From positions 1 through 31,106 of IMG/VR virus record IMGVR_UViG_3300020601_000050: 31,106 nucleotides of DNA; one strand, 5' to 3'. The position numbers and the translations under genes were made by a program. Below the pieces are notes generated by a model. That model made no database searches and was not told the DNA's origin. It saw only the letters and a program-made list of their open reading frames with translations. This document shows, piece by piece, positions 5,978-22,185 of this stretch (the first letter of the stretch is position 1; each line of letters opens with the position of its first letter). This DNA is from a virus.

Positions 5978-6477
5978 TGGAAATAAATGTAAAAGATATT
6001 GAGGTAGCTGAAGAAAAGGCGCAGATATGTTGTCTGCTCAATAGTGTCTGGCATAGCCGACTGCCTAAAATACATTGGTCTAATGTCGTCAGAAATACAC
6101 ATTATGTTTGTTATGTATTTACTTATGAGCAGGCTATAATTGGTACAGGCATATGGTCTTCACCAGTTGCTCAAAACAGATTTAAGAATGGTAAAACTGT
6201 TTTAGAGTTGAGGAGACTTGCTCTCTCAAGTTTTTGCCCTAAGAACACCGCGACATATACTATATCTAAAATGGTTAAGTCCATTCGTAAAAAATTTCCA
6301 GATATAAATAAATTGGTTTCATACCAAGATAATGAGGTTCATTTAGGGACGATTTACAAGGCTTCTAATTGGTACATTCACGGTCAGTCCTCTTTATTTG
6401 ATTGGAACACTAACGGTAGAAAACGCAATGAAGCACAGGCTAAAAGCGTAAAGACAAGGTGGGATTATGATTTATAA
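5977..6477 (+). CDS. Mom-like (GNAT-fold) DNA modification protein
   Basis: A 166-residue protein. Residues 76-92 (LELRRLALSSFCPKNTA) and 113-132 (LVSYQDNEVHLGTIYKASNW) match the conserved blocks of the phage Mu Mom family: E-L-x-R-L, then a P-x-NT segment leading into a helix, then V-S-Y-x-D--x-H-x-G-x-I-Y-x-A-x-NW. Mom converts adenine in DNA to N6-(1-acetamido)adenine and so protects phage DNA from host restriction. Mu Mom is longer (about 230 residues), so this may be a minimal member or a related GNAT-like protein. GAGG lies before ATG 5977. The gene looks richer in A and T than those after it, which hints at transfer. It is co-transcribed with the Cro-like regulator, so expression is probably early. 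Confidence 0.7.
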   Translation: MEINVKDIEVAEEKAQICCLLNSVWHSRLPKIHWSNVVRNTHYVCYVFTYEQAIIGTGIWSSPVAQNRFKNGKTVLELRRLALSSFCPKNTATYTISKMVKSIRKKFPDINKLVSYQDNEVHLGTIYKASNWYIHGQSSLFDWNTNGRKRNEAQAKSVKTRWDYDL

Positions 6478-8436: not shown

Positions 8437-8963
8437 TGACTGACAAGAAATTACCACAGCATTATCAGAAAAAAAGACTGATTGCTCGTAGCAAGAAGCT
8501 TGAGGATGAGTTTCTCAAGCGGCTAGTGGACAGGCCAGCGACTCATGTCGGCAAGGATATTGATATGCCATCATTCAACACGTTCTGGCGTTGGATGTCC
8601 AAAGATGCGGAACTGAGGGATCGTTACAGGCTTGTGATGGAGAGCAAGGCGGCTATCGCCGATGCGAAGATCAGTGAGATACAGGAACAGGTCAGAGGTG
8701 TCGTGCAGGAAGCTAGAGCAGGTGTGATTACCAAGGATGTCGCTTATGTAGCGATACAAGCGGCTAGGCTGGATATTGATACTGAGAAGTGGCGCGCTGG
8801 CAAGTATTACCCGAAGATGTATGGCACGGATCAGAGGGTCGAGGTCGAGCATAAGCACAGCTTGGTGGATGATCTGAGGATCGTCTCAGAGCGTGTAGCA
8901 GAGCGTGAGGCTAGGACGATTGAGGGTACTGTGCAGGATGTTGAGATCGAGGATGATGAGTAG
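8436..8963 (+). CDS. terS: Terminase small subunit, Sf6-like
   Basis: A 175-residue protein from ATG 8436, with GGAG 6 nt upstream and the ATG sharing bases with the previous stop (TGATG). Residues 1-60 form an HTH DNA-recognition domain (FLKRLVDRPATHVGKDIDMP...FNTFWRWMSKDAELRDRYRL). The middle is a coiled helical part (AAIADAKISEIQEQVRGVVQ). AIQAARLDIDTEKWRAGKYYPKMYG matches the IDARKW-(A)SKL-PK-YG block of the Sf6 small terminase. The C-terminus is acidic. It should recognise phage DNA and hand it to the large subunit. Unusually, 440 nt and a glycosyltransferase-like gene separate it from the large subunit. Confidence 0.8.
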   Translation: MTDKKLPQHYQKKRLIARSKKLEDEFLKRLVDRPATHVGKDIDMPSFNTFWRWMSKDAELRDRYRLVMESKAAIADAKISEIQEQVRGVVQEARAGVITKDVAYVAIQAARLDIDTEKWRAGKYYPKMYGTDQRVEVEHKHSLVDDLRIVSERVAEREARTIEGTVQDVEIEDDE

Positions 8964-9007: not shown

Positions 9008-9337
9008 ATGCGCTGGGGGAAATTGTTAAGGAAAACAAAGGGTGTACACATTTGTGGCGCGATTACGCACACCGATGGCGGTCAAGTGCCTCGCGCGAGA
9101 TTGATATTGAGAATGATTCTCATTCTCATTCGCAACTGGATACAACTCACAAAAGAAATACAACCAATAGTAACTGCAACTATATGGTGTGTAACAATAT
9201 CAATGACTTACGGCGTGTGCATGGTCAATAACGTCTTACATAATGGTTATTATGCGACAAACCAGCAACTAATAGTAGAAAAGTGGCCTGTTGCAAATGC
9301 GAATGATTCTCATTCTCATTCTCAGCCCCCCCCCTGA
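9008..9337 (+). CDS. Doubtful small membrane protein
   Basis: A 109-residue ORF from ATG 9008 with GGAG 5 nt upstream. The N-terminus (KTKGVHICGAITHTDGGQ) faintly recalls short phage proteins with a CGA...HGG motif, but the downstream Cys and HGG are missing. A hydrophobic stretch (PIVTATIWCVTISMTYGVCM) could be a membrane helix. Both promoter-like repeats lie inside the ORF and its tail (SHSHSQPPP) is encoded by repeat plus C-tract, so the frame may be open by chance or be a decayed gene. Confidence 0.25.
   Translation: MRWGKLLRKTKGVHICGAITHTDGGQVPRARLILRMILILIRNWIQLTKEIQPIVTATIWCVTISMTYGVCMVNNVLHNGYYATNQQLIVEKWPVANANDSHSHSQPPP
9101..9130 (+). promoter_or_regulatory. Promoter A with Fur-box-like operator
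   Basis: TTGATA (9101-9106), one base, the perfect 7-1-7 dyad TGAGAATGATTCTCA (9108-9122), one base, then TCTCAT (9124-9129). Spacer between hexamers is 17 bp. TTGATA is 5/6 to the sigma70 -35 consensus; TCTCAT is a weak -10 (4/6). The dyad differs from the 7-1-7 Fur consensus TGATAATNATTATCA by one base per half. Promoter activity and Fur binding are inferences from this layout. Confidence 0.55.
9291..9320 (+). promoter_or_regulatory. Promoter B with Fur-box-like operator, before the packaging/head operon
   Basis: TTGCAA (9291-9296), one base, TGCGAATGATTCTCA (9298-9312), one base, TCTCAT (9314-9319): the same geometry as promoter A. It shares the 20-nt repeat at 9301-9320 with 9111-9130. 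Transcription would begin near 9326, at the start of the C-rich leader, and reads into the glycosyltransferase-like and large terminase genes. Confidence 0.55.
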
Positions 9338-9404
9338 AATCACACGCGCCCCCCAGTAATAAAAATATATACCCACAGACACCCCACCCCCCATGGAGAA
9401 AAAC
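9326..9404 (+). promoter_or_regulatory. C-rich, G-poor leader, rut-like
   Basis: Nine consecutive C (9326-9334), then six C (9349-9354), then runs of three, four and six C up to 9392, with very few G between 9335 and 9392. C-rich, G-poor RNA is what Rho binds, so the leader could allow Rho-dependent attenuation. The opposite strand carries matching G runs that could form a quadruplex. GGAG at 9395-9398 is the ribosome site of the next gene. Role is inferred. Confidence 0.4.
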
Positions 9405-10745
9405 ATGACTACCACCACCCCCGAAAAAAAATTCCTCGCTGATGTTAAACGCGCCCACGCCCTTGCTGATGAGGGCAAGTACGAGGACAGCGCACGACTC
9501 TGCGGCGAGTTGTTGCAAGCCGTTGACAGCCCCTATGTAGCGAACCTGCTTGGATTGAACCTGTTGCGGATGGGCAAGCCTGAACACGCTGAGAGAGTAT
9601 GGGAGATTGCACTTGAGGACGATCCTGACTGTGTGCCTGTTATCAGCAATCTGGCGAACCATCTGCGCGAGAGGCACAGGTTTAAGCGTGCTGAGAGCCT
9701 CATAGACCATGCGTTGCGTTGCAAGCCTGATGATTTCAGGTCTAATCACAATAAGGCCGTCCTAGAGCTTAATATCGGTCGTTATAACAGTGGTTATAAG
9801 TACGCTGAGAAGGCTAGGCGGCTTCAGCCTGATGATATTTCCGCCCAGCACACGCTGTCACTGGCGAGCTTGTACACTGGTCGTTATCGGCAGGGGTTTG
9901 ACCTGTACGAGGCTAGGCAAGCGTTGTTTCATCGTGATGATTCGCCGTTGCCGAAATATACTGGCGGCAAGGCCAAGGTGATTGTCCGGCATGAGCAGGG
10001 TTTTGGCGACACGCTGATGACGATGCGCTTTTTGCCACGGTTGCAAGAAATGGGTGCTGAGGTATATATTGTTTGTCCAAAGCCTTTGCAGAGGCTAATT
10101 CGTGATACTGGCCTGTGTAAGATACACGAGGATGGGGTTGATGATTACACGCACCATCTCTGGACAATGGATTTAATGGGTCTATTTGTTAAGGAATGGA
10201 GTGATTGGGATGATAAGCCTTACATTAATGCCAGTTTGGAGAGCCGAGCGCGATGGGGTTCACAGCTTGGCGAGGACAGAGGTGGGCTACGAATTGGCAT
10301 CTGCTACGGCGGCGCGGCGCGGTCGGACTCGATTGCGGCGTACCAGATCGACAGACGCAGAAGTCTTGCGCCGTCTGAGGCAATGCAGATTGTGCGTTCA
10401 AGACCAGATGCCCAGTGGGTTAACCTGTCAAGGGAATGGGGTCTGCCAGAGGTAGATGACTTTGGGGCTAGGGTTGAGGACTTTGCTGACCTAGCTGGCA
10501 TTATTAGCAATTTAGACTTGGTGATTACAGTTGACACGGCAGTGGCGCATTTATCTGGCGGCTTGGGCGTTCCTACTTGGATGCTCTCACGATACGATGC
10601 GTGTTTTAGATGGTGGCCTTACGAGGACACCACGCACCTATATGGCAGTATGCGATGCTTTTACCAGCCGAAACTGTTTGACTGGCACTCAGTAATCGTT
10701 AAAGTGTCAGAAGAACTCCAGAGGGCAAAACGTGTCAGGAAATAG
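9405..10745 (+). CDS. TPR protein with glycosyltransferase-9-like domain
   Basis: A 446-residue protein. ATG 9405 is chosen over 9393 because GGAG lies 6 nt upstream. Residues about 8-160 are tetratricopeptide repeats (NLLGLNLLRMGKPEHAERVW, NLANHLRERHRFKRAESLI, NKAVLELNIGRYNSGYKYAE). The second half is a GT-B-like fold: VIVRHEQGFGDTLMTMRFLP, EVYIVCPKPLQRLI, IGICYGGA, and VDTAVAHLSGGLGVPTWM at 376-393. This D-T-A-x-x-H-L-x-G-x-L-G-x-P-(T/V)-W motif is the nucleotide-sugar site of heptosyltransferase-like (GT9) enzymes and bacterial TPR-glycosyltransferases. It may glycosylate a virion or host surface component. Its place between terS and terL is unusual. It overlaps terL by 14 nt. Confidence 0.8.
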   Translation: MTTTTPEKKFLADVKRAHALADEGKYEDSARLCGELLQAVDSPYVANLLGLNLLRMGKPEHAERVWEIALEDDPDCVPVISNLANHLRERHRFKRAESLIDHALRCKPDDFRSNHNKAVLELNIGRYNSGYKYAEKARRLQPDDISAQHTLSLASLYTGRYRQGFDLYEARQALFHRDDSPLPKYTGGKAKVIVRHEQGFGDTLMTMRFLPRLQEMGAEVYIVCPKPLQRLIRDTGLCKIHEDGVDDYTHHLWTMDLMGLFVKEWSDWDDKPYINASLESRARWGSQLGEDRGGLRIGICYGGAARSDSIAAYQIDRRRSLAPSEAMQIVRSRPDAQWVNLSREWGLPEVDDFGARVEDFADLAGIISNLDLVITVDTAVAHLSGGLGVPTWMLSRYDACFRWWPYEDTTHLYGSMRCFYQPKLFDWHSVIVKVSEELQRAKRVRK

Positions 10746-12123
10746 CGAACTCTTACAAAAGTTACACGATGACCCAGTGCTGTTCGTTGAAACGGTGTTG
10801 GACGCTAAACCACAGCCGTGGCAAGCCAACGCCTTACGAGCCGTCAGGGATAATGACAGGGTGGCAATTAAGTCTGGTCACGGTGTCGGCAAGACGGCGT
10901 TTTTGTCGTGGACGGTTCTGTGGTGGTTATGTACGCATTACCCCTGCAAAGTCGCTGTAACGGCGAACACAGCGCACCAGTTGAGCGATGTGTTGTGGAC
11001 TGAGATTGACAAGTGGGCGCGGAAACTGCCGCCGTTCTTCAAAGACCAGTTAGATTTTAAGACTGACAAAATTGCATTGAAGGGCGCGACTGACAGCTTT
11101 GCCGTTGCCCGAACCAGCCGTAAAGAGAACCCAGAGGCGTTGCAAGGATTCCACAGCGAGAATATGCTGTTTATCTGCGAGGAAGCGTCAGGTATCCCCG
11201 ATGTCGTGTTTCAGGTCGGCGAGGGTGCTATGTCCACTGCTGGTGCTAAGACGGTGATGTGCGGAAACCCCACTAGATCGGATGGGTTTTTCTATGAGGC
11301 GTTTCATGGCTCAAGGGAATACTGGTCAACGATGACTGTCAGTTGTACTGATGCCACGACTGTCTCTGAGCAGTTCCTAGAGAGCATGGCGAGTAAGTAC
11401 GGCGAGGATAGTAATATCTATCGGGTTCGCGTTCTGGGCGAGTTTCCAACGCAGTCTGATGATGTTCTGTTGCCGCTTAATTTGGTTGAGGACGCTGTTA
11501 AGCGTGATGTCGAGGCCAGCCCTAATACACCTGTTGTGTGGGGCATAGACGTTGCAAGAATGGGCAGTGACCGTTCCGCGATTGCCAAGCGTCAGGGCAA
11601 TGTCTTGTTTGAGAAGATCAAGACCTATCAGAACAAAGACCTAATGGAACTGGCAGGGATTGTCTTATCTGAGTATGATGCCACCCCCTATCAGCTACGG
11701 CCTAGAGCGATGTATATTGACGCGATTGGGCTAGGCGCAGGTCTAGCTGACCGACTAAGAGAGTTGGAACTGCCAGCCGTTGCCATATCTGTGAGCGAGA
11801 CTGCCAGCCTCAAGGACAGGTTTAACCGTCTGAGGGATGAGTTGTTTTGGAACGCGAGGGAATGGTTTGAGGCGCGAGATTGCAAGATACCCGATGATCA
11901 GACTTTGGTGCAGGAACTGACCAGTGTGCGTTATAAGTATCTCAGCAATGGCAAGCTAAAGATTGAGAGCAAGGACGAGATGAGGCGGCGTGGGCAGAGA
12001 TCGCCGGATGTCGCTGATGCGTTTGTGTTGTCCTTTGCCCAGCAAGGCGCGGTTGCAGGTGGCTACTCAAGAGGCTATACTTCCAATCGCCGTATCAACG
12101 TCAACAAGGGCTGGATAGTATGA
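10732..12123 (+). CDS. terL: Terminase large subunit
   Basis: A 463-residue packaging motor. The N-terminal ATPase has Walker A SGHGVGKT (48-55) after the adenine-motif region QPWQANALRA, and Walker B LFICEE with E150/E151. The C-terminal RNase H-like nuclease has acidic residues D273 (WGIDVARMGSD), D330 (MYIDAIGLG) and D426/D429 (SPDVADAF), which cut concatemeric DNA. It pumps DNA into the prohead through the portal encoded downstream. Start is GTG 10732 with GAGGG 6 nt upstream, inside the end of the glycosyltransferase-like gene. The stop overlaps the next ATG (ATGA). Length and motifs are complete. Confidence 0.97.
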   Translation: MSGNSELLQKLHDDPVLFVETVLDAKPQPWQANALRAVRDNDRVAIKSGHGVGKTAFLSWTVLWWLCTHYPCKVAVTANTAHQLSDVLWTEIDKWARKLPPFFKDQLDFKTDKIALKGATDSFAVARTSRKENPEALQGFHSENMLFICEEASGIPDVVFQVGEGAMSTAGAKTVMCGNPTRSDGFFYEAFHGSREYWSTMTVSCTDATTVSEQFLESMASKYGEDSNIYRVRVLGEFPTQSDDVLLPLNLVEDAVKRDVEASPNTPVVWGIDVARMGSDRSAIAKRQGNVLFEKIKTYQNKDLMELAGIVLSEYDATPYQLRPRAMYIDAIGLGAGLADRLRELELPAVAISVSETASLKDRFNRLRDELFWNAREWFEARDCKIPDDQTLVQELTSVRYKYLSNGKLKIESKDEMRRRGQRSPDVADAFVLSFAQQGAVAGGYSRGYTSNRRINVNKGWIV

Positions 12124-12398
12124 GCGACAATGTGATTGAGTTCCCAAAGACTGAACTAGACATTGATGTTGAGCTAGAGATTGACGATGATATGGTAGTT
12201 ATTGAGGGTGTCACTGAATTGGTTGACATCATGCTTTATGGCTTTAATTCGGCTCATGAGGTCACGCCGGAACATATTATGAAGGCTATGATGCAGTTGG
12301 CAGTGATATGGGGCTTTCGAGCAGGTATGACCCCAGATGAGATCATGGATTTATTTAAGCGGATGCGAGTCCGGCTAGAGGACGAAGACGATGGCTAA
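12120..12398 (+). CDS. Small acidic hypothetical protein
   Basis: A 92-residue, strongly acidic protein (ELDIDVELEIDDDMVVIEG near the N-terminus, LEDEDDG at the end). Between these is a helical region (EHIMKAMMQLAVIWGFRAGM, PDEIMDLFKRMRVRL). No family recognised. It overlaps terL by 4 nt and the next gene by 8 nt, so it belongs to the packaging operon; it could be an accessory to terminase, without direct evidence. Confidence 0.75.
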   Translation: MSDNVIEFPKTELDIDVELEIDDDMVVIEGVTELVDIMLYGFNSAHEVTPEHIMKAMMQLAVIWGFRAGMTPDEIMDLFKRMRVRLEDEDDG

Positions 12399-12669
12399 AG
12401 ACCCCCGATTGGATCGGGTAGGTGTATCCGGCTATAACAAGCCGAAGCGCACACCTAACCATCCGACAAAATCTCATGTCGTTGTTGCCAAGGAAGGCGA
12501 CAATGTGAAGACCATTAGATTTGGTCAGCAAGGTGTTTCTGGTGCTGGCAAGAACCCCAAGACAGCATCTGAAAAGGCGCGGCGTAAGTCGTTCAAGGCT
12601 CGTCACGCCAGCAACATAGCCAAGGGCAAAATGTCTGCGGCTTATTGGGCAGATAAAACGAAGTGGTGA
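12391..12669 (+). CDS. DUF6321-like basic protein
   Basis: A 92-residue basic protein. RVGVSGYNKPKRTPNHPTKS, VVVAKEGDNVKTIRFGQQGV, ARRKSFKARHASNIAKGKMS and AAYWADKTKW form a highly conserved set of blocks that I know from many phages and some bacteria and assign to DUF6321. Function is unknown; the charge suggests nucleic-acid binding or packing inside the capsid. AGAGGA lies before the ATG. It is flanked by terL and head genes, as is usual for this family. Confidence 0.8.
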   Translation: MAKDPRLDRVGVSGYNKPKRTPNHPTKSHVVVAKEGDNVKTIRFGQQGVSGAGKNPKTASEKARRKSFKARHASNIAKGKMSAAYWADKTKW

Positions 12670-12685
12670 CATAGGAGACTGAAAC

Positions 12686-13486
12686 ATGGCTAGACCCCAG
12701 CCTAATGTTTTAGTCAACACTGATCACGGCATGATGATAGTCAACAGACTGGATTATGCCCTATCCCCAGACGGCAAGACTGGTTACGGTGTTGGCTTTC
12801 AACTACTAAACAAGGGCAATTATGACCCACAGGAAATTGACCTCATCAAGTTCCTAGCAAAAGATATGGCAGAGAAATTAGACCGCCCGATCACGATGGT
12901 TGACGGCGGTGCTAATATCGGAGTGCATACGATTGAGTGGGCAAAGGCTCTGGGCAATCGTGGCAGAATTGTGTCATTCGAGGCACAAGAACATATTTAT
13001 CATATGCTGTGCGGCAATATTGCCATAAACAACTGTTTTAATGTGAAGGCGTTTAATGCGGCTCTGAGCGACACTGAGGGCTGGCTAGAGATACCCAAGC
13101 CGAACTATAACGACAACGGCTCGTTCGGCTCAATGGAACTTAAACAGCATGACCGCAGTGAGAATATCGGGCAAGACCTGACAATGAAAGCCACAGTAGC
13201 TACTATGGCTATTGATGACTTTGAGTTTCAGCATTTAGACTTTCTCAAGCTGGATGTCGAGGGCATGGAAATGGAAGCATTGGCTGGCGCGGATGAAACC
13301 ATCAAGCGTTGCAAGCCTCGTATGCTGATTGAGATTATCAAGATTGAACGTGCTGAAATTGCTGGCTGGTTAGCTGAAAGGGATTATGTCGCTTTTCCAT
13401 TTGCAGGTAACTTTATTGCAATCCATAAATCTGATAGTATGTCGGACAGGATTACGTCTGAGAATGGCGTGATTAGCATTTCTTAA
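12686..13486 (+). CDS. FkbM-type SAM methyltransferase
   Basis: A 266-residue enzyme. SAM-binding motif I is VDGGANIGVHTIEWA (D73-G-G-A-N-I-G79). SFEAQEHIYHMLCGNIAINN is the acidic loop plus helix. The FkbM signature DFLKLDVEGMEMEALAGA and CKPRMLIEI follow. FkbM proteins O-methylate sugars or small molecules. In a virus the target could be a glycan made by the GT-like protein encoded upstream, or a host surface sugar; both are inference. AGGAG lies before the ATG. Similar methyltransferases occur as accessory genes in marine phages. It sits among packaging and head genes and may be a moron. Confidence 0.85.
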   Translation: MARPQPNVLVNTDHGMMIVNRLDYALSPDGKTGYGVGFQLLNKGNYDPQEIDLIKFLAKDMAEKLDRPITMVDGGANIGVHTIEWAKALGNRGRIVSFEAQEHIYHMLCGNIAINNCFNVKAFNAALSDTEGWLEIPKPNYNDNGSFGSMELKQHDRSENIGQDLTMKATVATMAIDDFEFQHLDFLKLDVEGMEMEALAGADETIKRCKPRMLIEIIKIERAEIAGWLAERDYVAFPFAGNFIAIHKSDSMSDRITSENGVISIS

Positions 13487-13498
13487 CAGGAGTTTCAT

Positions 13499-13567
13499 AT
13501 GTACGGCAAAGGCAAAGGCAAGGGCATGAAAAAGGGCGGCACTAAGACAGGCAAATACTGCTCTTAA
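13499..13567 (+). CDS. Very short Gly/Lys-rich peptide
   Basis: A 22-residue ORF, MYGKGKGKGMKKGGTKTGKY then CS, with a strong ribosome site (ACAGGAG) before the ATG. Its stop overlaps the next ATG (TAATG). Short GKGK...KKGGTKTGK peptides recur before portal genes in marine phages as I remember them; role unknown. The strong ribosome site supports translation. Confidence 0.55.
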   Translation: MYGKGKGKGMKKGGTKTGKYCS

Positions 13568-13713
13568 TGGCTGGTCAAGGTTTATATGCTAACATCCACG
13601 CCAAGCGTAAGCGTATTAAGGCTGGCAGTGGTGAGAAAATGCGGAAGGTAGGTGCTAAAGATGCGCCCACCGCAAAGGCGTTTAAGCAAGCGGCAAAGAA
13701 AAAAGGCAAGTAA
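13567..13713 (+). CDS. Small basic phage protein (LYANIHAKRKRIKAGSGE)
   Basis: A 48-residue, very basic peptide: GLYANIHAKRKRIKAGSGEK then MRKVGAKDAPTAKAFKQAAK. I recognise this combination as a widely conserved short phage protein found in the head region of many genomes, with no proven role. Its size and charge suggest binding to DNA or RNA. ATG overlaps the previous stop, and the gene ends 2 nt before the next start. Confidence 0.75.
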   Translation: MAGQGLYANIHAKRKRIKAGSGEKMRKVGAKDAPTAKAFKQAAKKKGK

Positions 13714-13715
13714 TC

Positions 13716-16001
13716 ATGGCTATCAGAATGGCTGATCCAGCGCGATATGCGCCTGACTTGCTAGGATTTTATCCGCAAGAGCGTCAGATAGATCGCCGTT
13801 ATGAAATGACAGGCGTTAATCCTTATGCGATGAACGCCGACAGGTATGTCTCTGGGCTGTTAACAGACCCAACGGCTCGTGCTGAATTTGGCACTGGTCT
13901 ATTGCAAGGCGCAACAACAGACCTAGCCGCCACACCTGTTGATATATATGCAAGTGCTGTTGACATGGCACAGGATATCACTCCGCAGAATAATCAATTT
14001 AACTACTACACCAATCCATTCTGGATGTTGTCTCAGTCCGGCGACTTAGCCGAACAAGTGTCAAGTGTTGCTGGCTCAGAAGCGTTAGGCGAAGCTGTCT
14101 ATGGTAAGCCCCCAGAAGGCTATGGTATGTACCGAAACCCAGCCAGAGTTGTGGGTGGCGTTACTGGCGCAGGTGAACTTGCGCTAGGTAAGGTGTCGGC
14201 AGAAGTCGCACCGTATGTTGCGAGAGGTGTCAATTACTTAACTGACGCTATGCCAAGACCGCAAGCCGTTACACCAGAGGGCTTGTTAATGGATGTGCCA
14301 CAACAAGCACCCACACAGCCACAGACGCTGTTGGTGGAAGGTAATGCACAGGATGTGACATCAGTTAGCCGCATGGATGATGTTGATGAGCTTGGCTTTT
14401 ACAGCGTTGCGCTCGATGCCGCTAAAAAATTACCTATGAACAAAGGCACAGGACAGCAGTTTAGAAAAATGCTGGAAAATGCTGGGGTCAAAAAAGATGA
14501 GATAACATTCACCCCAGAACTTGATAATTTACTTTCTCAAGATCGCGTGACTAAAGAAGAATTGGTTGATGTTATTGAGCGCAATCGCGTGAGGTTATCT
14601 GAAACCGTCCTTGAAGGTGTTGGCGGTGGATTAGATGATTTGCGTATGTCATTAAGAGACAATCCTATTGCCTTTAACGAGGCTTTTGATGATGTTTATC
14701 TCGCAGAGAGATTTAGAGATATGCGTGACGACTTTGAAATATACGAAGATGATGTGTTCAATTATATCAGATCAAATTATGGCGATGACGAAGCGACTGA
14801 TATTATTGGTCGTGTTACAGAAGATGGTTACGATTCTTTAAGCAAATTCGATAAAGTAATTGTTAATGACGCTCTTAAAGATATTGAAGAAGCAAATTAT
14901 ATGCAGAATCCATTGTTTGAATATGAGGATTTGAATGAATCTGGAATTACTATTAGAGGTAATGATGATGAAGGATACCAAGTCTTTCATAATGGCGAAC
15001 CTGTAACATCTGATTATATCTCAAGTTCGGCAGAGGCTATGGTTCAAGCTGAAAATTATGCTTATGATGCAAATATTATAGGCGTACCAGAAGGTTCTGT
15101 ACGGTGGCAGGATCATGTTGAGTCTGGCGGTAAAAATTATAGAGAAACCTTGCTTACCCTACCAGAATTTCAAGGAAAAGAATTTGTAGGGTCGCATTAC
15201 GATGACCCAAATATTTTAGTTCATTTACGCACCAAAGACAGGGTTATGGATGATGGCTCTGATGTTCTTTATGTTGAAGAAATGCAGTCAGATTGGCAAA
15301 AGGGTAGCATAACAGGATTTCAAGGCACTGAAAAATGGACGAAGAATAGAAATGAGGCTATTAAGCAAAAAGATTATTGGGAGTCGGTTGAAAAAGAATT
15401 ACAGGCTAAAGTTGAAGCTGGAGAAAAAGAAATCTATGATGATAGAGGCTTCAATAGACCAACTTACTCGTCAGCAAAATACGATGACCTTGTGAAGCAT
15501 GATGAATCTTATAGAAAAATTCTAAATGACTTGCAAAACGCAACAAGGCAAAGAGTTATGGCATCTGCTGATGTTAGAAAATTTGATAACGCTCCTGACT
15601 TAGCTCCATTTATAGGTAATGCAGATAAATATGCAGAACTTGGTGTAAAAAGATTAATAACAACTGCCATTTCTGAGAACAAACCGTTTATTTCGTTTTC
15701 TTCTGGCGATGTGCAATTAGACAGATGGAACAATGAATGGCTTGAAGGCTTTTATGACAAAACAATACCAGAAGTGGCAAAAAAGCAAGTAAAGAAATTA
15801 GACCCAGACGCATTTGTAGGGTTTAAGGATGTAGAAATACGATCAGGTGAATTTGAGCCACGCTTTACTATTGAAATAACTCCTAAGATGCGTGAAAAAG
15901 CCAAGTCTGGGTTGCCGTTGTTTGCTGTCCCTGCTGGCACTGCTGTTGGCGCAGGATTGTTATCTGGAGAGGATAAACAACAGCCACAAGGACTGCTATA
16001 A
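13716..16001 (+). CDS. Polyvalent-type large protein in the head operon
   Basis: A 761-residue protein of several parts. Residues 1-190 resemble internal virion proteins, with repeated Ala/Gly-rich helices (LLTDPTARAEFGTGLLQGAT). Residues about 228-300 (GFYSVALDAAKKLPMNKGTG, TKEELVDVIERNRVRLSETV) match a domain of large polyvalent phage and plasmid proteins. So do YRETLLTLPEFQGKEFVGSH, VLYVEEMQSDWQKG, KRLITTAISENKPFISFSSG, GFYDKTIPEVAKK and FTIEITPKMREKAKSGLPLF. Polyvalent proteins are usually thousands of residues and injected with DNA; this is a stand-alone block ending in AVPAGTAVGAGLLSGE, a tail common in ejection proteins. It may be packaged and injected (inference). Bases about 14,700-15,900 look distinctly AT-rich, suggesting acquisition. 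Confidence 0.7.
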   Translation: MAIRMADPARYAPDLLGFYPQERQIDRRYEMTGVNPYAMNADRYVSGLLTDPTARAEFGTGLLQGATTDLAATPVDIYASAVDMAQDITPQNNQFNYYTNPFWMLSQSGDLAEQVSSVAGSEALGEAVYGKPPEGYGMYRNPARVVGGVTGAGELALGKVSAEVAPYVARGVNYLTDAMPRPQAVTPEGLLMDVPQQAPTQPQTLLVEGNAQDVTSVSRMDDVDELGFYSVALDAAKKLPMNKGTGQQFRKMLENAGVKKDEITFTPELDNLLSQDRVTKEELVDVIERNRVRLSETVLEGVGGGLDDLRMSLRDNPIAFNEAFDDVYLAERFRDMRDDFEIYEDDVFNYIRSNYGDDEATDIIGRVTEDGYDSLSKFDKVIVNDALKDIEEANYMQNPLFEYEDLNESGITIRGNDDEGYQVFHNGEPVTSDYISSSAEAMVQAENYAYDANIIGVPEGSVRWQDHVESGGKNYRETLLTLPEFQGKEFVGSHYDDPNILVHLRTKDRVMDDGSDVLYVEEMQSDWQKGSITGFQGTEKWTKNRNEAIKQKDYWESVEKELQAKVEAGEKEIYDDRGFNRPTYSSAKYDDLVKHDESYRKILNDLQNATRQRVMASADVRKFDNAPDLAPFIGNADKYAELGVKRLITTAISENKPFISFSSGDVQLDRWNNEWLEGFYDKTIPEVAKKQVKKLDPDAFVGFKDVEIRSGEFEPRFTIEITPKMREKAKSGLPLFAVPAGTAVGAGLLSGEDKQQPQGLL

Positions 16002-16144
16002 TGCCACTCATCAAAGGTTACAGCAAAAAGAGTATATCAGAGAACATCCGGCGTGAGATGAAGTCCGGCAAGTCTCAGAAACAGGCAACAGCTATTGCGC
16101 TGGATGTGGCGCGGAAAGCTAAAAAGCGGAGAAAGAAAACATGA
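16001..16144 (+). CDS. Small basic phage peptide (KGYSKKSISENI)
   Basis: A 47-residue basic peptide: MPLIKGYSKKSISENIRREM then KSGKSQKQATAIALDVARKA and a Lys/Arg tail. The KGYSKK-I--NI--EMK-G--QKQA-AIAL--ARK pattern is a widespread short phage protein found near portal genes. It is helical and basic, with an unknown role. AAGGA lies 8 nt before the ATG. It overlaps both neighbours (TAATG and ATGA). Confidence 0.8.
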   Translation: MPLIKGYSKKSISENIRREMKSGKSQKQATAIALDVARKAKKRRKKT

Positions 16145-16362
16145 ATGTATGTCAAGACTGCCCCTATCGTGGACGTTGCGAAAGCATGGGGCGTTGTATC
16201 CAAAAGAGAAATGCTGTATCTATTGAGCTACCACAGCCGAAGCCAGTGCCTGTGATTACAAGCAATGGCAATGTTATGTCAGGCAAGGTGAAGGATGATA
16301 ACTCGATTATACAGAAGGCCAAGACAGCCTTTTCCGGCAAAAAAGCCAGAACCAAAGAGTGA
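16141..16362 (+). CDS. Small Cys-rich protein
   Basis: A 73-residue protein with a Cys cluster at the N-terminus, CQDCPYRGRCESMGRC (C4, C7, C13, C19: C-x2-C-x5-C-x5-C), likely to bind one zinc ion. A Pro-rich linker (ELPQPKPVPVI) and a basic tail (AKTAFSGKKARTKE) follow. GGAG lies 9 nt before the ATG, which overlaps the previous stop as ATGA. Its 3' end overlaps another ORF in the +1 frame that has a similar Cys cluster. No known family. Confidence 0.65.
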   Translation: MNVCQDCPYRGRCESMGRCIQKRNAVSIELPQPKPVPVITSNGNVMSGKVKDDNSIIQKAKTAFSGKKARTKE

Positions 16363-16474
16363 GTTTGAGCGTTGCGCGAATTGCGTTACGCACAAAATAT
16401 GCGATACTGAGACTAAATGCGTATATGGCGCAAAGGTAAAACGCAATGGCAAAAATGGACGACTATCAACTTAA
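16295..16474 (+). CDS. Second small Cys-rich ORF, overlapping both neighbours
   Basis: A 59-residue ORF in the +1 frame relative to the preceding gene. It starts at ATG 16295 with AAGG 6 nt upstream and ends 29 nt inside the portal gene. The protein (MITRLYRRPRQPFPAKKPEP..., then FERCANCVTHKICDTETKC) carries C-x2-C-x5-C-x5-C, the same spacing as the upstream protein. It fills the otherwise empty 83 nt before the portal. It could be an independent gene, a frameshift-fused C-terminal domain of the upstream protein, or a decayed duplicate. Confidence 0.5.
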   Translation: MITRLYRRPRQPFPAKKPEPKSEFERCANCVTHKICDTETKCVYGAKVKRNGKNGRLST

Positions 16475-18470
16475 CAGCATCGTAACTGCTGAAATCAGGG
16501 ACTCGCTTAATCACTTTGACAGCGAGTACAGCGCAGAGCGTATCCGCGCCCTTGACTTCTACATGGGTGAGCCACTTGGCAACGAGATTGAGGGTCGTTC
16601 ACAGGTTATCAGCACAGACGTAGCGGATACCATCGAACAGATTATGCCTAACCTGATGCGTGTGTTCACAGCCAATGACCAATATGTGCGGTTTGCGGCG
16701 AGAACCGCAGAGGATGTTGAGAGAGCAGAGCAGATTACTGACTACTGCAATTACATCATCAATCACGACAACGAGGGCTACAAAGTCCTGTACAACTGGT
16801 TCAAGGACGCATTGCTGTTCCGGCTTGGTGTCGTCAAGTATTACTATGAAGAAAAAGAGGATGTCACTGAGGAAGAATACGAGAACCTCAGCGAGATCGA
16901 ATTAGCCGCGCTGATGTCCAACCCAGACTATGAACTGGTCGGCACGATTTCTGAGACAGTTAACGCCTACATGGTGGACGAGGAGACAGGCGAGGAAGTG
17001 CCTCTCGAAAGCTCGTTCAGTGTTACTGTTAAGGTTAAACGCAAGTCCGGCAGGATCAGAATTATCAATATTCCACCAGAGGAGTTTCTGGTTAACCGCC
17101 GCGCCGTTGATCTAGACGAGGCGCATTTTGTGGCGCACCGAACGAGCATGACTGTGAGTGACTTGGTGGCAATGGGCTATGACCGCGAGACTGTTGAGCG
17201 TCACGCTGGCACAGGCAGTGATGTTGACCTCGATGAAGAACGCTCAGTGCGTTATCAGGACTTGGAAGCAAACACTGGCATTGATGCGGCAGACCCGACA
17301 CTGGCAGAGGTTGTGTATTACGAATGTTATATGAAAGTGGATGTCGATGACGATGGGATTGCTGAGTTACGCCGGATTGTCGCTATCGGCGAAGGTGGCA
17401 CTGAAATCATCAGCAATGAGCCATTTGATCACATTCCATTTGCAGTTGTCAGCCCCATTCTGATGCCACACCGCCTGATCGGGCGTTCCATCTATGACAT
17501 GACGCAGGACTTGCAGGTGATTAAGTCCACACTGATGCGTCAGTATCTGGACAGCGTTTATGCCAGCACATTGCCACGGATCGCCGCCGTTGAGGGCATG
17601 GTGAATCTGGATGACTTGTTGGATGGTACGGCTGGCGGCATTGTTCGAGTTCGTCAGCAGGGTATGATCCAGCCTATTCAGAGCAATCCTGTCGGAAATG
17701 AAATCCAGCCCCTGCTAGGATATCTAGATTCGGTAAAGGAACAGCGTACTGGTATGAGCAAGGCATCACAAGGTCTTGATGCTAATGCCCTGCAATCCAC
17801 AACAGCTAGTGCTATTAGCGCGACTGTGAGAGGCGCACAGGTTAAACTCGAATCCTACGCTCGAACCATGGCTGAGTGTGGGGTTAAGCAACTGTTCAAG
17901 GGCATCCTGCACTTGATCACCAAGTACGATAACAAGCCACGCATTGTCAGACTGCGTAACAACTATGTGCCGATTGATCCGGCTGAGTGGCACAGTGAGT
18001 TTGATGTCATTGTTCAGGTCGGGCTTGGTACGGCTGACGATGAGCAGAAGATTGCGTTCTTGCAAGCTATTGCGGCAAAGCAGGAACAGATACTGCAAAC
18101 GCTGGGCGCAGACAATCCTGTTGTTAGCCTACCGCAGTATGTGTCAACGCTGAGAAGCATTGCAGAGATTGGCGGCTTCAAGGACGCTGACCAGTTCTTT
18201 AACAATCCACAACAGATTGCCATGCAGATGCAAGCGATGCAACAACAGCCACAGCAAGACCCTAATGCGGCACAGACGCAGATGGACATGGCTAAACTTC
18301 AGCAAGAGATGGCACTGAAGCGTGAGCGTATGCAGATGGAGATTCAGCTAGAGCGTGAGAAGATGCAAGCCGAACTAGAGCTACGGCGGCAGGAACTCGC
18401 GGCAGAGGCGCAACTCAGAGCAATCAAGGCGCAGACTGACGCTGAGATTAGCACTAACTTACCGAGGTAG
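16446..18470 (+). CDS. Portal protein
   Basis: A 674-residue portal, the dodecameric ring at one capsid vertex through which DNA passes. The N-terminus (YQLNSIVTAEIRDSLNHFDS...YMGEPLGNEIEGRSQVISTD, VADTIEQIMPNLMRVF) is typical of podovirus portals of the P22/SU10 group. DLQVIKSTLMRQYLDSVYAS and TGMSKASQGLDANALQSTTA mark the wing/stem part. The last 90 residues are a Gln/Met/Glu-rich coiled coil (KLQQEMALKRERMQMEIQLE), comparable to the long C-terminal helices of P22 portal barrels. AAAGG lies 9 nt before the ATG. Placed after terL and before the scaffold and capsid genes, as expected. Confidence 0.9.
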   Translation: MAKMDDYQLNSIVTAEIRDSLNHFDSEYSAERIRALDFYMGEPLGNEIEGRSQVISTDVADTIEQIMPNLMRVFTANDQYVRFAARTAEDVERAEQITDYCNYIINHDNEGYKVLYNWFKDALLFRLGVVKYYYEEKEDVTEEEYENLSEIELAALMSNPDYELVGTISETVNAYMVDEETGEEVPLESSFSVTVKVKRKSGRIRIINIPPEEFLVNRRAVDLDEAHFVAHRTSMTVSDLVAMGYDRETVERHAGTGSDVDLDEERSVRYQDLEANTGIDAADPTLAEVVYYECYMKVDVDDDGIAELRRIVAIGEGGTEIISNEPFDHIPFAVVSPILMPHRLIGRSIYDMTQDLQVIKSTLMRQYLDSVYASTLPRIAAVEGMVNLDDLLDGTAGGIVRVRQQGMIQPIQSNPVGNEIQPLLGYLDSVKEQRTGMSKASQGLDANALQSTTASAISATVRGAQVKLESYARTMAECGVKQLFKGILHLITKYDNKPRIVRLRNNYVPIDPAEWHSEFDVIVQVGLGTADDEQKIAFLQAIAAKQEQILQTLGADNPVVSLPQYVSTLRSIAEIGGFKDADQFFNNPQQIAMQMQAMQQQPQQDPNAAQTQMDMAKLQQEMALKRERMQMEIQLEREKMQAELELRRQELAAEAQLRAIKAQTDAEISTNLPR

Positions 18471-18472
18471 AT

Positions 18473-19510
18473 ATGGCTAACAATGTAACCTTACCAAAGC
18501 GTACAACGATTGAGGGGATGCCTCACAAGTTGGCTTACATTACGCCACAGGAAGGTGATCTGTTAAAACGTATGGGTGGCTCTGGTCAGATGCACAGAGG
18601 CGTACCATCTTACAGACCTGCTGGGGATACTGGTGCTACTGCGGCAGGAAGTTCTGGCGGTATTGGGGCAAGTGTTGGTGCGGCGGCAGGTGGCGCAGGT
18701 AGTATTGGTGGCAGTTCCATCAGCGGTGATGGCAGAGGATTAGCGGCTGATGTCGCGGCGGCTCAAGCGGTAGCTCAAGCCCAGCAAGCTATTGCGCAAG
18801 CAGAAGCCCAAGCCGCGCAACAAGCGGCAGTTGAGGGATACATTGGCAAGGCCGCATCACAGCAATTAGCAAATATAGCTTTTAATAACGCACTGCAACA
18901 AGCACAAATGGTTAACGCAACATCAATAGGGAAAATAGCTTCTTTTCTTTCTGGGCAGACACCAGAGCAAGCGGCATTGGCGCAAGCGGTAAGTTTGATG
19001 GGTATGCCGAATGTCGGTCTTAGCCCAACAGGAAGGGTGACAGCACCTATTGGAACTGCTGGCAGTATTAATCAAGGAAAATTTGGCGTAACTTATTCTG
19101 GCATGCCTCAAGCTGGTTACACTGGGGCATTTTCTAACTTGGTTAATCCACCATCCGCGCCAGACGGCAGAGAGCCACCTGTGCAAGTCGCACCTATTGT
19201 CGATGAAGAAGGCCGCGCCAGATGCCCGACAGGTTACTATTTTAACGAAACACTGCAAGCCTGTGTTATGGACACAAGTGCTACTAGTCCATTTCAGCCA
19301 ACAGCACCAGTTGCACCAACTGCGCCATCAGGCGATTACTACGCTCGAACTGGATTGCTTGACCAGCCACCATCAGGATTGCTAGAGGCTGGCTTTGGCA
19401 CACCACAGGATTTTGCGGCGGCAAATACAGCTTTCCGCAGAGGCGCGGCTACACGCCCAAGTATGTACACTGACCCCTATAACTTACAAGGATATACACT
19501 CTTATCATGA
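18473..19510 (+). CDS. Structural protein, Gly/Ala-rich, probably virion-associated
   Basis: A 345-residue protein. The N-terminus (LPKRTTIEGMPHKLAYITPQ, EGDLLKRMGGSG...GVPSYRP) matches a motif I recall at the start of virion proteins in marine podoviruses (AYI-P-E---L---GG-G-...G-P-Y). Then come Gly/Ser repeats (GGAGSIGGSS), an Ala/Gln coiled region (AQAQQAIAQAEAQAAQQAA), a motif CPTGYYFNETLQACVM with two Cys, and a Pro/Ala linker. No enzymatic motif. Located between the portal and scaffold genes, it may be a head- or ejection-associated protein. GAGG lies just before the ATG. Confidence 0.65.
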   Translation: MANNVTLPKRTTIEGMPHKLAYITPQEGDLLKRMGGSGQMHRGVPSYRPAGDTGATAAGSSGGIGASVGAAAGGAGSIGGSSISGDGRGLAADVAAAQAVAQAQQAIAQAEAQAAQQAAVEGYIGKAASQQLANIAFNNALQQAQMVNATSIGKIASFLSGQTPEQAALAQAVSLMGMPNVGLSPTGRVTAPIGTAGSINQGKFGVTYSGMPQAGYTGAFSNLVNPPSAPDGREPPVQVAPIVDEEGRARCPTGYYFNETLQACVMDTSATSPFQPTAPVAPTAPSGDYYARTGLLDQPPSGLLEAGFGTPQDFAAANTAFRRGAATRPSMYTDPYNLQGYTLLS

Positions 19511-19767
19511 ATGAAGGAAAACTGCGTGAGCGTATGGATCGCGGCGAAAAGGCGGCGGCACTCCTGCGAAACGAAATCCTACAAGAGTCGTTTTCGTATC
19601 TGGAAAATCAATTTATTACTGCGTGGAAGGAATCTGGTGTCTCCGACACTGAGAACCGTGAGCGCATTTACCAGCTTCTGCAAGCCCTTACTGCATTGCG
19701 TGGACACATCGAAAGTGTGGTCATGGATGGTAAGATTGCGAAGACAAGTCTAGGTGGCTTGAAATGA
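19507..19767 (+). CDS. Conserved small helical phage protein
   Basis: An 86-residue, mostly helical protein (LRERMDRGEKAAALLRNEIL, YLENQFITAWKESGVSDTEN, RERIYQLLQALTALRGHIES). The pattern of a short helical protein with a W-x-x-(S/T) and a RE-(I/L)---L--L--L segment is one I recall next to scaffold genes in many podoviruses. Function is unknown, with a head-assembly role suggested by position. The start overlaps the previous stop as ATGA. Confidence 0.75.
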   Translation: MNEGKLRERMDRGEKAAALLRNEILQESFSYLENQFITAWKESGVSDTENRERIYQLLQALTALRGHIESVVMDGKIAKTSLGGLK

Positions 19768-19798
19768 AACCTCAATTTAGTTTATAAAGGATAAAGTG

Positions 19799-20815
19799 AT
19801 GAGTACCGATAACTCTAATGAGAACGGCGCAATATCAACACAAGATGCAATAAGCCTGTTAATGCAACCCCCAGAGCCGGACAAGGTTGACGATGAACAG
19901 AGCGTAGAGGCAACGGCAGTTGAAGAACAGCCAGAAGTCTCAGAGCCTGAGTATGACGAAGCCGAAGCTGAGGTAGATGAACCCGAAGCTGAAGCCGAAG
20001 AATATGACGGCGAAGATGTTGAGGACGACACTGAAGAAAGTGACGAGCCAGAGCAACCCGAAGTCTATACCGTCAAAGTCGATGGTCAGGAATACGAGGT
20101 AACGCTTGATGAACTCAGATCAGGATACAGCCGTCAACAGCATTTTACAAAGCGTAGTCAGGAACTAGCAGAGCAACGCAAAGCCTTTGAACAAGAGGCC
20201 GCAGAAACAAAGCAGTATCGTGATTACTACGCTCAACAGCTTGAGCAATTAAGCAACCAACTCCAGCAGACAATTCCTAGCGAACCTGACTGGACGGCAC
20301 TAAGTCAGCAATATGAAGCTAAAGAGCTTTTTGCGATGAAGGCCGAGTACGATAAGCGCAAAGAAGAAATTGCGCGAGTCGAACAAGAGCGAGAGCGCAT
20401 CGCTCAACAGCAAAGCGTTGAAGCGCAACATCAGATGCAACAGCATCTGGCGACACAAAAAACAGAAATGCTGGAGCGTATTCCGGCATGGCGTGATGAG
20501 GGTCGCAGAAACAAAGAGCGTCTTGATGTCATTAAATATGCACAGGATGTTATCGGCTTCAGCGAACAAGAGATTGCAAATGCGTCTGACGCAAGAGCGA
20601 TTGAGATGCTGTATAAGGCATGGCAGTACGACAAGCTCCAGAAGGATGCCCCTGCTGTCAAGAAGAAAGTCCAAAGCGCACCAAAGGTTGCAAAGGGCGG
20701 TCAGCCCAAGACAAAAGCTCAAGTTCAAACTCGTCAACGCCGTGACGCTATGAACAAACTTACGAGAACTAAGTCTGTTGATGCGGCGGTGGAATTTTTA
20801 ATGTCAGGTCGTTAA
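19799..20815 (+). CDS. Scaffolding protein
   Basis: A 338-residue protein from ATG 19799 (AGG 8 nt upstream). Residues 25-85 are extremely acidic (EAEVDEPEAEAEEYDGEDVE). YTVKVDGQEYEVTLDELRSG then YSRQQHFTKRSQELAEQRKA is the phage scaffold hallmark KV-G-E--VTLDELK-GY-RQ--YT+KTQELAE-R. A long coiled coil follows (about 115-230) and then a basic C-terminus (KKKVQSAPKVAKGGQPKTKA) that should bind the capsid protein, as in P22 and SU10-like phages. It directs prohead assembly and then leaves the shell. It lies immediately before the capsid gene. Confidence 0.88.
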   Translation: MSTDNSNENGAISTQDAISLLMQPPEPDKVDDEQSVEATAVEEQPEVSEPEYDEAEAEVDEPEAEAEEYDGEDVEDDTEESDEPEQPEVYTVKVDGQEYEVTLDELRSGYSRQQHFTKRSQELAEQRKAFEQEAAETKQYRDYYAQQLEQLSNQLQQTIPSEPDWTALSQQYEAKELFAMKAEYDKRKEEIARVEQERERIAQQQSVEAQHQMQQHLATQKTEMLERIPAWRDEGRRNKERLDVIKYAQDVIGFSEQEIANASDARAIEMLYKAWQYDKLQKDAPAVKKKVQSAPKVAKGGQPKTKAQVQTRQRRDAMNKLTRTKSVDAAVEFLMSGR

Positions 20816-20827
20816 CAGGAGCTTATT

Positions 20828-21787
20828 ATGACCACTTTTACCACATCAGATGCCATTGGTGAGCGCGAACAGCTTGCAAATGTCGTGTATCGTATTGACC
20901 CAGATGAGACGCCAATTTTTTCTGCGGTTAAAAAATCAACTGGCAACGGAATCTTCCTTGAGTGGCAGATTCAGGAACTAGCCGCCGCAAGTGCTACCAA
21001 CTTTGCAACTGAAGGTGCTGATGCGTCAATCGCCGCCGCAACACCAACTGTTCGCGCTGGTAACTATATGCAAATCTCACAGAAGGCTTATGCTGTTTCC
21101 AACACTTTGGAACAGGTTGACAAAGCTGGTCGTGAGCGTGAATCCCAGTATCAGCGTGTGCTGAAATCTCTGGAACTGCGCCGCGACATTGAGAAGGCAA
21201 TCGGCGACACCAACGTAGCACGTTCCGGCTCTGACCCTCGTAAATCAGCATCGCTGATGACTTGGATCACCAACGGTTCTGTTGGCTCTGGTTCAACCTT
21301 CTCTGCTGGTCTTGGAACTGACGCTGTGACTGTTGGTACAGCCGCTTCTCGTGGTCTGTCACTGGCACTCATTGATGACGGTATGCAGGACGCTTGGACG
21401 GACGGTGGTTCACCAAAGATGATGGTGACATCTGCCGCCAACCGCGCTGTGTTCTCTGACCTCAGTGCATCCAGCAACTTGGTTAACAACCAAGTGAACA
21501 TGACGAAGGCAAAGGAAGTCACCTATGTTGGTTCAACCTCTGTCTATCTGACTGACTTTGGCACGATTGAGGTTAGCCCATCACGCTTCATGAGCAACGA
21601 CAAGTTGTTCTTGATTGATCCAGACTTTGTTGAAATCGCCACCTTGAACGGTCGTAACTTTGCTGAGAACAGCATTGCGGCTACTGGTGACGCTGAGAAG
21701 TTCCAGATCATCTGCGAATGGACACTCAAGCCACTAGCACCAAAGGCTCACGCCGCTGTGCTTGACCTAGACGGTACTGCCGCCTAA
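20828..21787 (+). CDS. Major capsid protein, SU10/DUF5309 family
   Basis: A 319-residue shell protein with an HK97-type fold by family. The N-terminus (DAIGEREQLANVVYRIDPDE, TPIFSAVKKSTGNGIFLEWQ, EGADASIAAATPTVRAGNYM) and later blocks (ISQKAYAVSNTLEQVDKAGR, DDGMQDAWTDGGSPKMMVTS, DKLFLIDPDFVEIATLNGRN) are those of DUF5309, the family of the SU10 capsid protein. AGGAG lies before the ATG. Codons look biased to C-ending, GC-rich choices relative to neighbours, as expected for the most highly expressed gene. A strong terminator follows directly. Confidence 0.93.
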   Translation: MTTFTTSDAIGEREQLANVVYRIDPDETPIFSAVKKSTGNGIFLEWQIQELAAASATNFATEGADASIAAATPTVRAGNYMQISQKAYAVSNTLEQVDKAGRERESQYQRVLKSLELRRDIEKAIGDTNVARSGSDPRKSASLMTWITNGSVGSGSTFSAGLGTDAVTVGTAASRGLSLALIDDGMQDAWTDGGSPKMMVTSAANRAVFSDLSASSNLVNNQVNMTKAKEVTYVGSTSVYLTDFGTIEVSPSRFMSNDKLFLIDPDFVEIATLNGRNFAENSIAATGDAEKFQIICEWTLKPLAPKAHAAVLDLDGTAA

Positions 21788-21799
21788 CTAATCCTGAGA

Positions 21800-21825
21800 G
21801 GGGCGGTTCGCCGCCCCTTTCTTTT
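21800..21825 (+). terminator. Strong terminator after the capsid gene
   Basis: GGGGCGG (21800-21806), TTCG loop, CCGCCCC (21811-21817), then TTTCTTTT. A perfect 7-bp GC-rich stem with a stable UUCG tetraloop and a T tract. It ends the head operon 12 nt after the capsid stop and just before promoter C. Confidence 0.92.
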
Positions 21826-21853
21826 GCGAATGAGAATAATTATCATTATCATT
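21824..21853 (+). promoter_or_regulatory. Promoter C with Fur-box-like operator, before the tail operon
   Basis: TTGCGA (21824-21829), one base, TGAGAATAATTATCA (21831-21845), one base, TATCAT (21847-21852). The -10 is 5/6 to consensus and the spacer is 17 bp. The dyad differs from the 7-1-7 Fur consensus (TGATAATNATTATCA) at one base. Start of transcription would be near 21859, 9 nt before the next ATG. Same geometry as promoters A and B. Confidence 0.65.
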
Positions 21854-21867
21854 AACACAGGTGATTT

Positions 21868-22185
21868 ATGAAACGCCCCCTGATTACTGACCCCACAACA
21901 GGGAAGACCGTGTACCTTCAGAGTGATACTGAGGGTGATCACATTGTTACTGAGCAGAAGTTTGACACCCTGCTAAAGATCAACAAACAGATGAGCGATG
22001 ACTGGAATTATGGTCAGATGCGCGGCACGCAGAAGCACATGGCGCACATTGCCGAAATACCCAATGTATTGTATCATCACCTCTTGAAGACGCTGGGCAA
22101 GCCTAGCGAAAACCCAAAGGCATGGAAGCAGTGGCTCAACGATGGTGAGAACCGCGCTTTTAGAACTGGTGGCGGCAACGTATGA
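21868..22185 (+). CDS. Small head-tail region protein
   Basis: A 105-residue protein. The N-terminal KRPLITDPTTGKTVYLQSDT and EGDHIVTEQKFDTLLKINKQ are beta-like. Then KHMAHIAEIPNVLYHHLLKT and NPKAWKQWLNDGENRAFRTG form helices. The last motif (W-x-x-WLND-(E/G)-N-x-x-F-R-T-x-G) is one I have seen in a small protein that follows the capsid gene in many podoviruses. Function is unknown, plausibly in head completion. AGGTG lies before the ATG. It is the first gene after promoter C and overlaps the adaptor gene by 4 nt. Confidence 0.75.
   Translation: MKRPLITDPTTGKTVYLQSDTEGDHIVTEQKFDTLLKINKQMSDDWNYGQMRGTQKHMAHIAEIPNVLYHHLLKTLGKPSENPKAWKQWLNDGENRAFRTGGGNV

Follow-up and report, generated by a model that had tools for sequence, protein, structure and literature searches.

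Putative Fur-type arrays at two late-gene junctions of a tailed phage and a dif-like Xer core between two of them

The window analyzed here is the whole 31,106-nucleotide stretch of one IMG/VR virus record (IMGVR_UViG_3300020601_000050), a marine phage that is tailed by gene content. Its genes encode a small terminase (TerS), a TPR protein, a large terminase (TerL), an FkbM-type methyltransferase, a portal, a capsid and other virion proteins. Three short inverted repeats (dyads) at junctions between these genes, referred to as sites 1, 2 and 3, resemble the recognition boxes of the bacterial iron regulator Fur. An earlier note on this stretch had read them as three late promoters, each with a Fur-box-like dyad filling its spacer. 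The analysis presented here favours host Fur as the putative ligand of all three, with a predicted promoter at site 3 and a dif-like XerCD recombination core between sites 1 and 2.

Genes and features at the two junctions

The small terminase gene (8391–8963, plus strand; phrog_1482 terminase small subunit, E = 4.7e-18) is followed by sites 1 and 2, and the first gene past site 2 encodes the TPR-repeat protein (9393–10745, plus strand; Pfam TPR_2, E = 2.5e-10). Next comes the large terminase gene (10732–12123, plus strand), identified by tblastn against annotated terminase large subunits. The earlier placement of both sites before a packaging and head operon therefore holds for the TPR and TerL genes but not for TerS, which lies upstream of both.

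Site 3 follows the major capsid gene (20828–21787, plus strand; phrog_1328 major head protein, E = 1.1e-81). After this gene the sequence, read directly, contains a hairpin, GGGGCGG-TTCG-CCGCCCC, with a T-rich tail (21800–21823, plus strand), which was not called by an automatic terminator scan and which is retained by nearly all relatives. The start codon of a 105-aa gene (21868–22185, plus strand; phrog_3982, unknown function) lies 15 nt past site 3. Site 3 adjoins virion genes, but it stands after a terminator-like hairpin and before this small gene rather than simply ahead of a tail operon.

Three arrays with a shared layout

Site 1 reads TTGATA-t-TGAGAATGATTCTCA-t-TCTCAT (9101–9129), site 2 TTGCAA-a-TGCGAATGATTCTCA-t-TCTCAT (9291–9319) and site 3 TTGCGA-a-TGAGAATAATTATCA-t-TATCAT (21824–21852), in exact agreement with the letters, positions and layout first described. 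In shuffled windows the expected count of the full layout is 0, and the three sites are the sole strong dyads of the record. The 15-nt dyad of two 7-nt arms about a single nucleotide is present at each of them, but the true repeat is longer. Every site consists of G-[AC]-[GT]-AAT hexamers (GAGAAT or GCGAAT type) arrayed about a 1-nt centre, and the TNTCAT taken for a -10 element is itself the following hexamer of the array. At site 1 the array covers 9101–9136, with further ATTCTC/ATTCGC hexamers beside the dyad (9108–9122); at site 2 it covers 9291–9325, with two more ATTCTC hexamers beside the dyad (9298–9312), and abuts a C-run; at site 3 (plus strand) it covers 21824–21857, and the array around the dyad (21831–21845) overlaps TTGCGA-N17-TATCAT.

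Similarity to Fur-regulated promoters

All three sites differ by one to three mismatches from the classical Fur consensus, TGATAATNATTATCA, and additional hexamers are attached to each. We derived a symmetrised 19-bp matrix exclusively from 25 phage sites and ran it against 126 kb of E. coli K-12, of which a 40-kb stretch is devoid of iron genes. Its top ten matches lay in the promoters of fecI, entC/fepB (two), fepA/fes, fhuF (three), fiu, fecA and cirA, and the first non-iron match appeared at rank 11 with 12.0 bits, while the reversed control reached a maximum of 9.4. With the same matrix the phage arrays (30.4 for site 1 and 29.2 for site 2) outscored the E. coli sites examined.

Moreover, a 24-nt pattern, TTGNGAATGANAATNATTNTCATT, had four occurrences in 274 Gammaproteobacteria and its reversed form none; three of the four stand ahead of a gene encoding a protein that matches solved ferric-iron-binding proteins (E = 3e-43). 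The 17-mer TGAGAATNATTNTCATT was found in 13 copies among 24 relatives of one such genome, one per genome (reversed, 0), and ten of these chromosomal copies lie 50–76 nt upstream of the same ferric-iron-binding protein gene. Over 24 of 24 nt, the TTGCGAATGAGAATAATTATCATT sequence of site 3 is identical to three of these ferric-iron-binding protein promoters (L194, L201, L203). The TTGNGAATGANAATNATTNTCATT and TGAGAATNATTNTCATT searches started from a phage-derived pattern, and the E. coli matrix test is the non-circular line of evidence. In a sample of Alphaproteobacteria a single match was obtained in 289 genomes. The likeness to a Fur box noted at the outset is borne out by these comparisons, and the three elements are very probably Fur-type recognition sites. 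Other phage contigs outside the window's clade (L302, L323, L273, L279, L322, L304 and L306) also have Fur-type arrays in pairs or clusters, in some cases 39–110 bp apart.

A dif-like core flanked by sites 1 and 2

The region 9101–9320 had been described without the element that lies in its middle. On the minus strand at 9233–9260, between sites 1 and 2, the window carries TTGTCGCATAA TAACCA TTATGTAAGAC, its best match to dif (15/19). The 11-nt XerC arm is identical in all 11 positions to chromosomal dif sites such as that of L206, and the XerD arm reads TTATGTAA. A search with TGTCGCATAA-N6-TTATG recovered 30 of 200 Pseudomonadota genomes, mostly with a single copy, and none in the reversed control. 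In a relative from a Reyranella metagenome-assembled genome (L168), the XerD arm of the phage, TTATGACAAAT, equals that of the chromosomal dif, a dif present in 22 of 41 related genomes. Most relatives of the window have a dif-like core at the same spot, in either orientation and with a variable central 6 bp.

In the window the dyads are placed at -132 and +58 from the core, with site 1 on its left and site 2 on its right. As a matter of anatomy, sites 1 and 2 are in all probability a pair flanking a dif-like core. A search of Rfam gave no match to a known structured RNA. Site 2 is followed at 9326–9392 by a C-rich block and then AAAAATATATACCC, ahead of the late genes, a conserved element with an equivalent upstream of TerL or TerS at the corresponding position in most relatives. 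This C-block consists of a C-run, a GC-rich stretch and AAAAATATATACCC, and is a candidate for a cos site or an activator-dependent promoter; the few nearby contig ends inspected did not coincide with it.

A putative promoter at site 3

Among the three sites only site 3 was listed by a sigma-70 scan (score 9/12), its hexamers matching the sigma-70 consensus in 4/6 positions at -35 and 5/6 at -10. In the eight haplotypes of site 3, TTGnnAA and TATCATT are nearly invariant, whereas the degenerate positions of the hexamers vary. Beyond the window's subclade, in which capsids are at least 92% identical, the site occurs in just one further relative, L107; both promoter hexamers of the array are retained in the subclade and not in L107, and in the remaining relatives the hairpin and a ribosome site are all that this spot contains. 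The same layout, TTGnnn-N17-TATCAT overlapped by the box, also stands ahead of bacterial iron genes. Judged from these features, site 3 is probably, though by no means certainly, a Fur-repressed promoter behind the terminator of the capsid gene.

Sites 1 and 2 behave differently. Their TCTCAT does not have the key A at position 2 of a -10 element, and the scan lists neither. Of 13 distinct dyads in the packaging gap, between TerS and the late genes, that were found outside the near-clones of the window, none has both hexamers, although the dyad is retained; in relatives, site 1 reads as the last part of the TerS coding frame. As a conserved feature, additional promoters at sites 1 and 2 were ruled out, given that relatives keep the dyad and lose the hexamers. 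The proposal of three promoters thus survives at site 3 alone, and the comparison with related phages suggested in the earlier note divides in the same way, with hexamers and array conserved together at site 3 and dyads outlasting hexamers in the packaging gap. On this evidence iron control of late genes is plausible at site 3, whereas sites 1 and 2 are better accounted for otherwise.

Recurring slots and exchangeable dyads in relatives

In 1.56 Mb of sequence from relatives, collected by terminase and capsid, 24 of 28 distinct strong dyads fall either in the packaging gap or in the gap between the capsid gene and the 105-aa gene. A scan of all viral contigs for strict Fur arrays identified, in addition, a distant freshwater clade whose terminase is 48–49% identical to that of the window and in which the order is the same: Fur box (inside the last part of TerS), dif, Fur box, C-block, terminase. 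The dif sequence is present in all 58 distinct loci of this clade (16–19 of 19), and Fur boxes in about one quarter of them, on both sides of dif in eight. The left box lies -108 to -127 from dif in the distant clade; in the wider clade of the window the left dyad lies mostly at -103 to -115, for Fur-like dyads and dyads of the GTTAACC type alike. Exceptions to these left positions lie at -62 to -65 and -132. Distances from dif to the C-block are periodic near 10.5 bp, a hint only, as related loci inflate the period. These two tailed-phage clades, although deeply separated, both conserve a dif-like XerCD core beside TerL, with a varying central 6 bp. With respect to the terminase genes, both orientations of the core occur in the window's clade (L005 and L008 versus the window and L006) and a single one in the distant clade (L338–L416).

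The identity of the dyad in these slots is not constant. A TTAACCnGA-T-TTnGGTTAA dyad, the GTTAACC type, occupies slots around the dif core, upstream of TerL, in L063, L079, L082, L154, L016 and L046, and additional dyads, TGTGCTAACACG and GTGGTGCTATGCTACCACA, were seen in other relatives. Two dyad types are found together in some phages (L016, L037). Furthermore, L016 and L022 encode TerS proteins that are 99% identical and yet have different dyads.

Weighing the explanations

The reading we favour, with a probability of roughly 0.5, is that host Fur binds all three sites, represses a promoter at site 3 and shapes or gates a Xer and late-entry locus at sites 1 and 2. Iron-loaded Fur would repress the site 3 promoter, and its release would allow extra transcription of virion genes past the capsid gene. 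At sites 1 and 2 Fur would act on the Xer core and the entry to the late operon as a nucleoprotein structure, not as a cover for two promoters, much as ArgR does at cer or ArcA at psi. A more specific form of this proposal is that Fur on both sides of the phage dif is a Xer accessory factor that shapes the recombination complex, that XerCD recombination of the phage, be it integration, excision or dimer resolution, hinges on host iron, and that relatives have swapped in other host regulators; we regard this as tentative, with the odds clearly against it. An ArgR-type accessory box at sites 1 and 2 was ruled out by its spacing, which is TGAAT-4-ATTCA in an ArgR box and TGAGAAT-1-ATTCTCA here.

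Several observations weigh against the favoured reading. Under the hexamers first proposed, a transcript from site 3 would have a leader of just some 9–10 nt, and a dif core is absent at this site. The assignment to Fur was judged on E. coli and gammaproteobacterial promoters, whose Fur may not be that of the window's host. None of the few bacterial genomes reached showed a relative integrated at dif, and in a Paraburkholderia copy (L167) TerS and TerL are contiguous; this copy is therefore not integrated through the packaging-gap locus. Finally, L016, L017 and L020 have Fur arrays but no dif core, and most of the distant clade has dif cores but no Fur boxes; therefore, the link between Fur and dif is not obligatory. 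These last two patterns are also what would be expected if Fur merely controlled late transcription from the packaging-gap junction, which may be the case. Reading through the Paraburkholderia contig revealed no recombinase motif. In a relative within an isolate genome, on a Paraburkholderia oxyphila contig (G002:C282, approximately 68450–69214; L422/L423), an open reading frame resembles a ParA-type partition ATPase by eye, a hint of a phage-plasmid lifestyle.

The original interpretation, in which three separate sigma-70 late promoters each hold Fur in the spacer and are switched on under iron limitation, draws on the exact layout at all three sites, on the conserved hexamers of site 3 and on the Fur-type motif. 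It is nevertheless unlikely, since the -10 elements of sites 1 and 2 lack the A at position 2 and are uncalled, both hexamers are missing from every packaging-gap dyad beyond the near-clones, site 1 stands behind TerS and merges into its reading frame in relatives, and the dif core and the pairing about it are left unexplained. That the dyads are instead operators of a phage-encoded regulator, resembling Fur boxes by chance, is quite unlikely. Changing phage regulators would be expected to leave dyads of other kinds, among them the GTTAACC type, in the same slots, and a Cro-like helix-turn-helix (HTH) gene is present at 5777–5977, but strong dyads are absent near this gene and in the early region, and the motif recovers the Fur regulon of E. 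coli and shares 24 identical nucleotides with iron promoters. Because some phages, such as L016 and L037, mix dyad types, host proteins are favoured over a single phage regulator. Moreover, a Fur-family protein was not found among the window's open reading frames scanned with Pfam or PHROGs, a search that passed over a few small frames in a possibly incomplete record.

A third possibility is that the boxes are sponges: multiplying phage DNA would titrate Fur, raise iron uptake and free the phage's own sites as copy number increases. Such a switch requires no change in iron, and strong multi-hexamer arrays at up to three places, with scores above those in E. coli, would suit it. Their placement at late-gene gaps and around dif is, however, more specific than titration needs, and many relatives have a single box or none, which makes this account very unlikely. 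Packaging signals of the cosB type, recognized by the small terminase, could be imagined for sites 1 and 2 from their position at TerS/TerL beside the GC-rich C-block, a possible cos. This idea is scarcely credible, as site 3 is distant from the terminase genes and the motif is Fur-type; binding by TerS was rejected because the nearly identical TerS proteins of L016 and L022 go with different dyads.

Comparison with known systems

Bacterial Fur boxes, such as those of E. coli fecI, entC and fhuF and of gammaproteobacterial ferric-iron-binding protein promoters, share with the phage sites the 19-bp motif and the hexamer-array form and, with site 3, the overlap with TTGnnn-N17-TATCAT. In contrast to them, the phage sites have packaging and capsid genes as neighbours, and no iron gene is close by. 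In phages of Alphaproteobacteria, CtrA sites cluster in promoter regions, binding has been tested, and ‘lytic deferment’ has been proposed (PMC9437464); these are likewise sites for a global host regulator thought to report the state of the host. Here the regulator would be Fur, and a dif-like core lies between two of its putative sites.

The plasmid sites cer (ColE1) and psi (pSC101) are Xer sites that use ArgR or ArcA together with PepA (PMC5357621). They resemble the packaging gap in combining an XerC/XerD-type core with sites, putative in the phage, for a host transcription factor in a non-coding region of about 200–300 bp. The phage locus differs in having Fur-type boxes on both sides and in belonging to a phage rather than a plasmid. 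CTXphi, VGJphi and GGI integrate at dif by means of host XerCD (PMC5357621, PMC2731167). Like them, the window contains a phage-borne dif-like sequence and no integrase gene was found among its open reading frames in the Pfam and PHROGs scans, which had the same limits as above; in contrast to them, it represents a tailed double-stranded DNA phage for which integration at dif was not seen.

The closest precedent for Fur in a tailed-phage late region is the stx1 promoter of a Shiga-toxin prophage, which is controlled by Fur (PMC5552940); there the control reportedly concerns a single cargo gene, whereas here the boxes stand at junctions of packaging and structural genes across a phage lineage. 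Our literature search on Fur boxes in phage late promoters found nothing beyond the stx1 case. Phages with sites for a host regulator are already documented in the case of CtrA, and plasmids are known to pair Xer sites with regulators as accessory factors; here the two would be combined.

If the favoured reading is correct, a large aquatic tailed-phage lineage senses host iron at the junctions of its packaging and structural genes and at a Xer site. Iron is limiting for many marine bacteria, and entry through iron-uptake receptors has been proposed for some phages in the ‘Ferrojan’ idea; for these reasons a timing of late steps by Fur would be biologically sensible. The swappable dyads in recurring slots form a natural series for asking which host proteins bind.

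Further features of the window

A search for the host by terminase in bacterial genomes returned distant relatives only. The FkbM-type methyltransferase (12686–13486) and the TPR protein are apparent cargo within the packaging operon. A Mom-family DNA-modification protein is encoded at 5974–6477 (plus strand), adjoining the Cro-like HTH gene. Finally, the window encodes a stand-alone DnaA domain IV protein at 2870–3250 (minus strand; Bac_DnaA_C, E = 1.5e-17), and DnaA-box-like TTATCCACA sequences are found in the packaging gap of some relatives.

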